Positions 3,396-23,648 of a stretch of DNA of 40,172 nucleotides are shown here, in pieces. Each line of letters begins with the position of its first letter. Within the stretch, counting starts at the first letter, position 1. The stretch lies in the IMG/VR virus record IMGVR_UViG_3300025132_000097, positions 1-40,172 of that record; one strand, 5' to 3'. The notes below the pieces were generated by a model. It did no database searches. It was not told where the DNA came from and saw only the letters and a program-made list of their open reading frames with translations. This DNA is from a virus. A program made the position numbers and the translations under genes.

Positions 3396-4548
3396 CGGTA
3401 CATTTGACAATGGCACGACAGGGTGGACATTGTCAGGTGATGCACAAAGAATAGGCGACTGTTGTCCTGGTGGTCATGACTTAGAGTTTGGTGATCTAGG
3501 AAGTATAGATCAAGATTTTAATTTACTCAGTGATACAATTACGCAGCCTATGCTAAACAACGGCATAACACTTGATTCTAGTGTTGAAGTACAAAATGGT
3601 GAAGGTGGTGTTGGTAGTTGGGCACCTAACAGAGGCGGTGCAGATACATTTAGTATTAGACTACAGATTAAAGATGAAAATCAAAACGTATTAGCTACAA
3701 CAATACAGGAGAGAACAAATGTTACAGGGATTAATGGCAAAACTTTCACAGATAGTATATCGTATACAGGCACTGGTGCTAACATTGGAAATCTTTTTAT
3801 TAGCGGGTCTGATGCTGATGCTCCTGCTAATCTTGGTGGTCCTAACGTAGATAACATATCAGTGACCATGACCTACGATCCTACAGTTTTAACTGTAGAG
3901 CAAACACAAGAGATTGCAGCAATCTTTGAAGAGATAGAAGAAGTCTTTATGCAAGAAGAATTAATCTTTGAAGAAGTTTTTGTTGAACCAATCATAGAAG
4001 AAGTTTATGTAGAATCTATACCTGAAATAATAGAGATGACTGTAGAAGAAGAATTTATAGAAGAAACTATTGTGCTAGCACCTGAAGTTATAGAAGAAGA
4101 AATTATTTTAGTTGAGCCTGAAGTACAGGTAGAAGAAGAAGTATTAATAGCGGAGGAAATATATGAAGAAGTCGAAGCTCCAATGGAGGAGGCAAGTACT
4201 GAAACAGAAGAGGTTATTGAACCAACAGAAACAGTTGAAGAAACTACAGTCGCAGACAGCGGCTCTACAGACGATGTTACGATAACAGTAGAAGACATTG
4301 CTATTAAGGTAGCTGATAAGATTAAAACAATAGACGGTCAGCTTAAAGCTACACAGATGATAGTAGCTAAAGTTATGCAGAACCGCAGTAAGATATCTTC
4401 TTATGCTGAAGTAAATGCAGAAATATTTGTACAACCAGAGATAAAAGATATTAATATAGATTCATATATAGCTAGTAGCTATGTAGATATAAGACAAATT
4501 TACTCTAACCAAACTTACGAGGATAGATTATGGACATCAAGACAATAG
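3319..4548 (+). CDS. exported protein: carbohydrate-binding-like domain plus hyperacidic Glu/Val/Ile segment
   Basis: 409 residues from the chosen ATG, which has AAGGAA eight bases upstream; a GTG at 3295 would add eight residues before the signal peptide. Residues 1-17 are a signal peptide (MKKVLSLLLMLPLLASS). Residues about 18-187 form a beta-rich domain with the NLITNGTFDNGTTGWTLSG opening typical of carbohydrate-binding jelly rolls. Residues about 193-312 are extraordinarily rich in Glu alternating with Val and Ile, in short imperfect repeats (EEVFVEPIIEEVYVESI). A mixed helical C-terminus follows (about 320-409). The 5' end overlaps the previous gene by 77 bases in another frame. Export or surface location is inferred; function unknown. 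Confidence 0.7.
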   Translation: MKKVLSLLLMLPLLASSDTTENLITNGTFDNGTTGWTLSGDAQRIGDCCPGGHDLEFGDLGSIDQDFNLLSDTITQPMLNNGITLDSSVEVQNGEGGVGSWAPNRGGADTFSIRLQIKDENQNVLATTIQERTNVTGINGKTFTDSISYTGTGANIGNLFISGSDADAPANLGGPNVDNISVTMTYDPTVLTVEQTQEIAAIFEEIEEVFMQEELIFEEVFVEPIIEEVYVESIPEIIEMTVEEEFIEETIVLAPEVIEEEIILVEPEVQVEEEVLIAEEIYEEVEAPMEEASTETEEVIEPTETVEETTVADSGSTDDVTITVEDIAIKVADKIKTIDGQLKATQMIVAKVMQNRSKISSYAEVNAEIFVQPEIKDINIDSYIASSYVDIRQIYSNQTYEDRLWTSRQ

Positions 4549-4733
4549 CAACAGGGATAGGACTAGTCATTACAATAGCATCACTATTTGTATTTCAAGG
4601 TCAGTTGATAGAAAGAGTCGAGGTACTTGAATCAAGGGTAGTAGATACTAAACCTATTGAAAAAGATATAATCGCTATCAAAAAAGATATCGAGCAACTA
4701 CAAAAGAAGAGCAGTAATCCGCTAGCACAATGA
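4530..4733 (+). CDS. small membrane-anchored coiled-coil protein, 67 residues
   Basis: One hydrophobic segment at about residues 5-23 (TIATGIGLVITIASLFVFQ) is followed by a charged heptad-like helix (about 26-62: LIERVEVLESRV, EKDIIAIKKDIEQLQKK). An N-terminal anchor with a periplasmic coiled coil is the layout of i-spanin-like proteins, although 67 residues is short for a spanin and no o-spanin lipobox partner is evident. A GAGGAT site lies seven bases before the ATG. It overlaps the previous gene by 19 bases and the next by ATGA. A lysis role is a plausible inference only. Confidence 0.65.
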   Translation: MDIKTIATGIGLVITIASLFVFQGQLIERVEVLESRVVDTKPIEKDIIAIKKDIEQLQKKSSNPLAQ

Positions 4734-20174: not shown

Positions 20175-20340
20175 TTGATTAAATATCAAGTTTTATCGGG
20201 CGCAGGCGCCATGCTGTAGGGTGATCTGACTAAGGGCAAGGGTCCTAAGTGTTTGATTTATATACATATTTTAACGGACTAGGGCTATGGCTTTTGATCA
20301 GGGTAGCAGGGCCCTAAGTTATTGATTAATATACACTTTT
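20175..20340. repeat. three imperfect copies of a TTGATT-TATATACA box with shared flanks
   Basis: Copies: TTGATTAAATATCAAGTTTT (20175-20194), TTGATTTATATACATATTTT (20253-20272) and TTGATTAATATACACTTTT (20322-20340). Copies two and three also share the preceding flank, AGGGTCCTAAG and AGGGCCCTAAG with an upstream AGGG-rich stretch, so those units are about 45 bases long. Spacing is about 70-78 bases. Copy one is an inverted repeat by itself (TTGAT...ATCAA). Confidence 0.65.
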
Positions 20341-20483
20341 CTGCCGCTTCGGGTTGCCCTTTTTTTAAACCCTTCTCTGGGGACACATGGTCCTCGTCCC
20401 GCCAGCCCGCGTCCCCGCTCCTCCTGGCCTAATTTCACGCCCAACTCGGCCGGCCTGTAGCCGATACGCCGCAGCGGTGTCAT
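20319..20483 (-). CDS. possible small basic protein in GC-rich island, 54 residues
   Basis: An open frame of 54 codons starts MTPLRRIGYRPAELGVKLG and ends GRKVYINQ inside repeat copy three. The beginning looks like a helix-turn-helix segment (YRPAELGVKLG) and the end like the GRKVYI strand of excisionase-type proteins, but the middle is Arg/Gly-rich and no good ribosome site precedes the ATG. Codon choice is strongly GC-rich, unlike all neighbours. It may be a decayed or imported fragment, or a chance frame in GC-rich DNA. Confidence 0.25.
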   Translation of the reverse strand: MTPLRRIGYRPAELGVKLGQEERGRGLAGRGPCVPREGFKKRATRSGRKVYINQ

Positions 20484-20509: not shown

Positions 20510-20532
20510 CTAGTGCATAAGCGTGTCCTCCT
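20510..20532 (-). other. strong Shine-Dalgarno followed by a start-stop minigene
   Basis: On the - strand AGGAGG (20527-20532), eight bases, then ATG CAC TAG (20510-20518). A near-perfect ribosome site thus leads to a two-codon ORF. It may be the remnant of a lost early gene or a minigene of the lambda bar type that ties up ribosomes or tRNA. No longer frame can be joined to it by a single base shift that I could find. Confidence 0.35.
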
Positions 20533-20547
20533 GTTACCTAGTTATAG

Positions 20548-20748
20548 TTATACTGTTGCTATATGCTCAGCTACCATGCTATCTTCAACAAGATTATCAT
20601 CTCGTTGTTGACGCACAGATGCACGTAGAGCTGGATCATTATTAATGAACGCTCTAAGCTCATCAGCTGTAGCATCAGCATCTATGCCGTAAACTTCTAC
20701 CTCAGCATGTGAGGTATACCAGATTACGACCTTTTTGACTGCTGCCAT
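20548..20748 (-). CDS. hypothetical early protein, 66 residues
   Basis: Starts MAAVKKVVIWYTSHAEVEVY with CAGGAG six bases before the ATG. A beta-hairpin-like N-terminus is followed by an acidic helical region (ADATADELRAFINNDPAL) and a polar C-terminus (SVRQQRDDNLVEDSMVAEH). It is acidic overall. Third gene of the leftward transcript after two membrane micropeptides, it is a candidate early host-takeover protein. No family is recognised. Confidence 0.65.
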   Translation of the reverse strand: MAAVKKVVIWYTSHAEVEVYGIDADATADELRAFINNDPALRASVRQQRDDNLVEDSMVAEHIATV

Positions 20749-20770: not shown

Positions 20771-20836
20771 TTATCCATGTATTGCAACGATTGCAATCAT
20801 GGTCCAGATTACCACGATCATTATGTGATACCACAT
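20771..20836 (-). CDS. membrane micropeptide, 21 residues
   Basis: Encodes MWYHIMIVVIWTMIAIVAIH plus Gly and stop: essentially one transmembrane helix. AGGAGGTGA, a full match to the anti-Shine-Dalgarno, stands at optimal distance (six bases after AGGAGG) from the ATG. Such a perfect ribosome site on a 22-codon frame in a promoter-proximal position is good evidence for translation. It may modify the host membrane or inhibit an envelope target; function unknown. Confidence 0.6.
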   Translation of the reverse strand: MWYHIMIVVIWTMIAIVAIHG

Positions 20837-20866
20837 AAGTCACCTCCTGTCTTTCGACATTAGTTA

Positions 20867-20947
20867 TTAGTCATCTAAGAATAGTCTTGCTACTGCGATA
20901 GCAAACAATACAAAGAATACGATCATTAGTATTAGTATTGCGTTCAT
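20867..20947 (-). CDS. membrane micropeptide, 26 residues, first gene of leftward unit
   Basis: Begins MNAILILMIVFFVLFAIAVA and ends RLFLDD: one hydrophobic helix with a charged C-terminus. AGGAGG lies six bases before the ATG. It is the most promoter-proximal leftward gene, followed 30 bases later by a second micropeptide of the same design. Unlike phage holins it lacks charged N-terminal or second segments. Function unknown. Confidence 0.6.
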   Translation of the reverse strand: MNAILILMIVFFVLFAIAVARLFLDD

Positions 20948-21124
20948 AATGTACCTCCTATATAGTTAATTAGTCTTTTTGCCACAAAGGGCCCCGGGGC
21001 GTAAATATACATCCTCAGTCTCTCTGTATACCAAGCCAGTAATTCTGTCGGGGCTATTTTTGCAACTGACATTATCCGATAATAAATATGTACAACGTAG
21101 GTAATAAATGTTATAAATACCTAT
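20948..21124. promoter_or_regulatory. divergent control region between early and late units
   Basis: The region separates the two opposed units and must hold their main promoters. It contains a 10-bp perfect palindrome GCCCCGGGGC at 20991-21000, unusual in AT-rich DNA and a candidate operator. The late side has an extended -10 (TG, T, TATAAA at 21109-21117). For the early side I see no single convincing promoter. Confidence 0.55.
21109..21117 (+). promoter_or_regulatory. extended -10 element of the late promoter
   Basis: TGTTATAAA ends eight bases before the terminase small-subunit ATG at 21125, and no Shine-Dalgarno lies between. If used, transcription would start at or next to the ATG, giving a leaderless mRNA. 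Confidence 0.4.
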
Positions 21125-21418
21125 ATGGCAGACAAAGGCGGCAAAAGACCAGGTGCAGGCAGACCTAAAGGTGCTGTTAACAAAAGATCAAAGGAACTAT
21201 CTGAAAGGCTAGATGATCTAGGCGTTGACCCTATCGAAGGTATGGCCATGATTAGTGCAGATCCTACAACAAGCCCTGAACTAAAGTTTCAGTGTTTTAA
21301 GGAACTAGCTCAATACATAGCCCCTAAACGTAAAGCCGTAGAACAACATACTACAGGAGATGTGACAATAGAAGTTGTCAACTTCCAAGACTTAGATGAA
21401 GATAAGGATTCCGTATGA
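21125..21418 (+). CDS. terminase small subunit
   Basis: 97 residues. The N-terminus GGKRPGAGRPKGAVNKRS is the AT-hook-like opening shared by many small terminase proteins of podophages, followed by a helical region (ELSERLDDLGVDPIEGMAMI, ELKFQCFKELAQYIAPKRK) and an acidic tail (NFQDLDEDKDSV). It recognises phage DNA for packaging and docks the large subunit. It is short for the family but in place, overlapping the large-subunit gene by 23 bases. In-frame upstream codons include no other start before a stop at 21098, so the ATG is fixed despite lacking a ribosome site. Confidence 0.75.
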   Translation: MADKGGKRPGAGRPKGAVNKRSKELSERLDDLGVDPIEGMAMISADPTTSPELKFQCFKELAQYIAPKRKAVEQHTTGDVTIEVVNFQDLDEDKDSV

Positions 21419-23409: not shown

Positions 23410-23481
23410 ATGCCAAAAGGACCGGGAACATATGGGAAAAAAAGAGGAAGACCAGCTAAGAAAAAAGGAGGCAAAAAGTAA
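23410..23481 (+). CDS. tiny basic peptide, 23 residues
   Basis: MPKGPGTYGKKRGRPAKKKG plus three residues, with the RGRPAKKK core of an AT hook. It starts one base after the previous stop and ends in a TAATG overlap with the next gene. This coupling and its composition suggest a real DNA- or RNA-binding peptide made in the late phase. Confidence 0.5.
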   Translation: MPKGPGTYGKKRGRPAKKKGGKK

Positions 23482-23648
23482 TGGCTAAACGTGGACTATA
23501 TGCAAACATACATGCAAAACGTAAAAGAATAAAAGCAGGCTCAGGAGAGACAATGCGTAAGAAGGGTGCTAAAGGAGCTCCTACAAAAGCTGACTTTACA
23601 AGATCTGCAACTACCGCTAAGAAAAAGCCAAAATCTAGAAAAGCATAA
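23481..23648 (+). CDS. small basic conserved protein, 55 residues
   Basis: MAKRGLYANIHAKRKRIKAG is followed by SGETMRKKGAKGAPTKADFT and a Lys-rich end. I remember close relatives with the GLYANIHAKRKRIKAGSGE phrase in many marine phages, always small and basic, without assigned function. It starts and ends by TAATG overlaps with the basic peptide and the portal gene. A DNA-binding role in packaging is inference. Confidence 0.75.
   Translation: MAKRGLYANIHAKRKRIKAGSGETMRKKGAKGAPTKADFTRSATTAKKKPKSRKA

Follow-up and report, generated by a model that had tools for sequence, protein, structure and literature searches.

The micropeptide genes A and B

The window analysed here is a marine IMG/VR virus record of 40172 bases. 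Judged from its portal, terminase, capsid and tail genes, it is a podovirus and distant kin of the HTVC010P-type pelagiphages. No relative of its terminase was found in GTDB genomes, which thus point to no host. The structural genes run rightward from position 21125, and a leftward gene set, which includes genes for primase, DNA polymerase, thymidylate synthase and helicases, extends from 20947 to 5463. Two micropeptide genes, A and B, form the start of this leftward set and of its first operon, where the following features are found.

20954..20959, minus strand: ribosome site AGGAGG of A, with the 6-nt spacer TACATT
20867..20947, minus strand: gene of micropeptide A, 26 aa, MNAILILMIVFFVLFAIAVARLFLDD
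20843..20848, minus strand: ribosome site AGGAGG of B, within the full AGGAGGTGA, with the 6-nt spacer TGACTT
20771..20836, minus strand: gene of micropeptide B, 21 aa, MWYHIMIVVIWTMIAIVAIHG
20548..20748, minus strand: gene that follows B in the operon, 66 aa, with AGGAG 6 nt ahead and a homologue in lineage L005

The frames of 26 and 21 residues to which a sequence-only reading of this DNA had drawn attention, each of them essentially one helix, were recovered on the minus strand just as described, and the same is true of AGGAGG six bases ahead of both and of the full AGGAGGTGA on one of them, which is B. Each peptide forms a single hydrophobic helix as judged by Kyte-Doolittle hydropathy only. 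Counted from the divergent region preceding the small-terminase-like gene (21125, plus strand), A and B are the first leftward frames with a ribosome site; one leader frame lacking such a site, with its ATG at 21072, lies upstream of A.

This leader frame (21072-20944, minus strand; MSVAKIAPTELL...) corresponds to MSDGKMAP-like frames of 13-14 aa in near relatives, and its ATG is absent in L018-L020. The leader ahead of A also contains a palindromic GC-rich block (20989-20999; CCCCGGGGCCC on the minus strand) that is kept in nearly all aligned relatives.

Taken by itself, the AGGAGG motif shows no more than mild enrichment: the window has 15 occurrences, with 9.4 expected. Both strands together hold 212 ATG frames of 18-35 aa, eight of which are strongly hydrophobic. 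AGGAGG at a distance of 4-9 nt precedes just two of the 212, namely A and B, and both belong to the hydrophobic eight. If the two properties are independent, the probability of this coincidence is 28/22366 = 0.0013, an approximate value given that starts are nested. Among 60 simulated first-order Markov sequences not a single AGGAGG-led hydrophobic frame arose, and AGGAGG-led frames of any kind occurred with a mean of 0.23. The earlier claim that such a double site is unlikely by chance is thus supported. Genes of 21-26 codons escape gene callers, and small proteins of phages are a source of new host effects (PMC11323111).

Searches with A and B of Pfam, NCBIfam and PHROGs at E 10, as well as profile searches of the PDB, yielded nothing credible. 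Comparison by tblastn with 50,697 phage records gave one match at chance level for A (E 4) and none for B. The two peptides represent new families of a known kind. The start of B, MWY, is reminiscent of CydX (Pfam YbgT/YccB) or CcoS (FixS), both small oxidase subunits. Mimicry of these proteins was rejected on the grounds that no Pfam or NCBIfam match was obtained at E 10; profile filters are weak for peptides of 21-30 aa.

Conservation and cassette exchange

Relatives were drawn from a terminase scan of IMG/VR, which provided 62 related contigs, and seven close lineages were examined (the window, L002, L005, L006, L009, L010 and L012). All seven contain a member of A or B behind AGGAGG, separated from it by 5-7 nt, as compared with 8 nt in L019, which is more distant. 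Without exception, the members found have an open, hydrophobic frame behind the ribosome site. Related phages thus keep both the peptides and the sites, which is the check that the sequence-only reading had proposed, and the outcome it had named as contrary, sites retained with frames lost, is absent for A and B. At the third AGGAGG of the operon the site is kept without a long frame, and relatives have a two- or three-codon minigene at this place.

Family A comprises forms of 26, 26, 30 and 29 aa with the common residues V10, A16-I17-A18, A20 and F23. Its profile, run against nine larger records, matched three at E ~1e-15, all of them with members that had been in its training set. Family B comprises forms of 21 and 25 aa which share W11, I14, I16 and A18; homology of the 25-aa forms to the 21-aa forms is plausible, albeit not proven. 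The A genes of L012 and L013 differ by two silent changes and by nothing else. When random substitution was simulated, selection for an open hydrophobic frame was favoured significantly in B alone (P 0.017), and less so in the other pairs (0.09 and 0.17); 21-30 codons are too few for a formal dN/dS analysis. No member of either family was revealed by DNA pattern scans of IMG/VR in phages below about 84% terminase identity, and all matches of these scans were located in contigs already fetched by terminase. As far as these scans reach, A and B are confined to near relatives.

Gene B is identical letter for letter in the window, L009 and L010. The block that the window shares with L009 or L010 consists of 12 nt upstream, which correspond exactly to AGGAGGTGACTT, together with the 66-nt frame and the 4 nt that come next. 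Outside this block the flanking sequences show no relationship (ungapped identity 26-39%). Moreover, the genes downstream of A and of B vary from phage to phage. Small cassettes made up of a ribosome site plus a frame are swapped between phages in the operon-head region, and the exact recurrence of a 66-nt gene together with precisely its ribosome site is a clean natural sign of an exchange unit. Identity of B between unrelated flanks, combined with variable downstream genes, argues that the peptide acts in trans and makes a leader peptide unlikely. Taken together, A and B are very probably genuine genes.

Possible functions of A and B

On balance, we think it probable that A and B are genuine membrane micropeptide genes carried as swapped cassettes, and that their products most likely are early modulators of the host acting in its inner membrane. 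They would be made soon after infection, a timing read from gene order alone, would insert into the host inner membrane, and once inserted might alter how a host membrane protein, or the membrane itself, functions. A and B share with phage early small membrane proteins, a descriptive kind, a short frame with a ribosome site of its own and a predicted transmembrane helix, and they are conserved as protein. A role in host takeover is plausible in view of their position and of the way known early modules behave, for instance the one in Bacillus phage SPO1. The genes of the SPO1 host-takeover module are mostly small, have strong ribosome sites and are transcribed early, and eight of them attenuate host growth (PMC6873191). 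The A/B region resembles this module in clustering mostly small genes behind strong ribosome sites, in its variable content and, putatively, in early transcription. By contrast, the SPO1 genes are larger and have been tested experimentally, whereas for A and B, with 21-26 aa, we infer both the early timing and the effect on the host. Among bacterial proteins, YohP (27 aa) is similar to A and B in that the whole protein is approximately one transmembrane segment (PMC7549839), but A and B are phage-borne, exchanged as cassettes and match no family.

Another function that must be considered is that of membrane toxins resembling those of type I systems, whose helix would insert into and depolarise the inner membrane and thereby arrest the host or exclude other phages. 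E. coli IbsC (19 aa) and ShoB (26 aa), which depolarise the membrane, resemble A and B in their size class of 19-26 aa and in consisting of one hydrophobic helix (PMC8309996). IbsC is still toxic with only 15 residues if 10 or more of these are hydrophobic, and like B it has no positive charge at its C-terminus (PMC8309996). A and B likewise fall within the general range of type I toxins (hydrophobic, about 19-60 aa), although any hydrophobic helix has this appearance. In contrast to the ibsC and shoB loci, however, no antisense RNA or antitoxin was seen in a consensus scan, where promoter-like sites on the opposite strand did not exceed chance. A lytic phage would not need an antitoxin. A and B also differ in lying in a phage operon with several small genes and in showing no sequence match to these toxins. 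We regard a toxin function as unlikely, yet as the most serious competitor of early host modulation.

The strong sites close to the 5' end of the operon, together with a minigene of likely cis function in the same operon, would also be compatible with A and B acting in cis on the operon mRNA, either as leader peptides or as docking sites for ribosomes, and thereby tuning its translation or stability, the peptide itself being irrelevant. This does not readily account for the letter-for-letter identity of B despite unrelated flanks and different downstream genes, nor for the hydrophobicity of the frames, which persists as the sequence changes, and we consider such a cis function improbable. Still less probable are miniature holins acting in lysis. 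Single hydrophobic helices may oligomerise, but A and B stand first on the side that carries the replication genes rather than belonging to a late lysis cassette, and holin-like frames of 54, 161 and 67 aa are present among the rightward genes (2222-2386, 2335-2820 and 4530-4733, plus strand). Finally, chance frames behind chance AGGAGG motifs, a notion that the very short frames and their absence from curated databases may invite, are contradicted by enrichment, conservation and exact cassette boundaries and hardly deserve credence.

A minigene with two hairpins, and neighbouring repeats

Downstream of the 66-aa gene, the operon contains the third AGGAGG and associated elements.

20527..20532, minus strand: the operon's third AGGAGG, 8 nt ahead of the minigene
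20510..20518, minus strand: two-codon minigene ATG CAC TAG (MH*); MH*, MD* or MIV* in relatives
20467..20476, minus strand: hairpin 1, CGC-UNCG-GCG, with a compensatory change in L014
20451..20463, minus strand: hairpin 2, CGGC-UAYAG-GCCG, with a compensatory change in three of four pairs

The third AGGAGG leads nothing but AUG-CAC-UAG. In an alignment of nine close sequences, ATG and TAG of the minigene are invariant, the codon between them is CAC or GAC, and the ribosome site is located 5 to 8 nt upstream. L018, L019 and L020 have the minigene ATG ATT GTA TAA behind GAGGTGAT. With 0.08 such minigenes expected by chance in the window, its occurrence is uncommon but not rare, and its significance derives from conservation rather than from rarity in the window.

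Both hairpins lie approximately forty bases past the minigene and are present in most relatives. Across the nine sequences, 99 of 99 cells pair and four pairs have changed on both sides. None of 500 shuffles matched this covariation and slid versions of the hairpins failed, with the proviso that nine is a small number of sequences and that shuffles take no account of relatedness. A covariance model built on the nine matched L019, L021 and L020, relatives at 84% terminase identity outside the training set, at E ~1e-14. Hairpin 2 is intact in these matches, and hairpin 1 is formed by other sequence with a five-base loop, e.g. CCA-UAUUG-UGG in L019. L018 has kept the minigene and has no hairpins. 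No match was obtained when Rfam was searched with the minigene-hairpin element (20532-20430, minus strand). Folded as a whole, the 373-nt intergenic region showed no gain in stability over shuffles (z 0.92), and covariation support within it is limited to the 5' part with the two hairpins. A 54-aa frame (MTPLRR...; 20483-20319) was rejected as a gene on account of its length, which varies from 13 to 54 aa across relatives. Coding by this frame was also discarded as the main cause of conservation: in L014 an arginine is replaced with cysteine by the very change that preserves hairpin 1.

The bar locus of phage lambda contains a two-codon minigene with a fixed last codon, AUA, whose tRNA is sequestered. 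The minigene described here has the strong ribosome site and the two-codon frame of this type, but its last codon is not fixed (CAC, GAC, AUU-GUA), and sequestration of one tRNA as in lambda bar is therefore unlikely. For the minigenes of axe-txe and LEE1 a cis effect of ribosome binding has been described (PMC8708949), and such an effect is the better guess here, although it is unproven. What the minigene has in common with those of lambda bar, axe-txe (mg2) and LEE1 is a ribosome site, AUG, one codon and a stop, situated in phage DNA or an mRNA leader. It differs from them in its variable codon (CAC, GAC, AUU-GUA), in having UAG or UAA as stop, and in the two covarying hairpins that follow it at the operon end.

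It is tempting to speculate, with rather less confidence than we place in A and B as host modulators, that the operon couples trans-acting micropeptides with a new RNA element, consisting of a minimal minigene and two covarying hairpins, in which a ribosome event controls the transcript. Ribosome binding followed by instant termination, rather than the peptide or the codon, would then determine how stable the transcript is or where it ends. If functional as RNA, the minigene would be a conserved natural two-codon gene whose signal is the ribosome event and not its product. Within the operon this element may exceed the peptides in novelty, and it is the part least expected by a specialist.

A conserved repeat is located beside the operon and is not part of the peptide genes.

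20302..20343, minus strand: conserved repeat copy 1, GTGTATATTAATCAATAACTTAGGGCCC
20233..20274, minus strand: conserved repeat copy 2, ATGTATATAAATCAAACACTTAGGACCC
18932-18891, minus strand: diverged repeat copy

The repeat resembles AAAGTGTATATAAATCAANNACTTAGGRCCC and occurs in two near-perfect copies and one diverged copy. It is kept in relatives, with the outlying copy as CAATAAAGTGTATAAAAATCATATATATAGRG. It looks like a phage-specific promoter, an origin element or protein-binding DNA; of the window genes that were searched, none was identified as coding for a phage RNA polymerase. A strong hairpin resembling an intrinsic terminator, with 13 pairs and then a T run, directly follows a 139-aa gene (19675-19647, minus strand). 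On the rightward side, a 55-aa frame (23454-23648, plus strand) belongs to phrog_16028, a family of unknown function. It overlaps a DNA segment of 150-170 nt with 73-77% identity in Pelagibacter and cyanobacterial phages.
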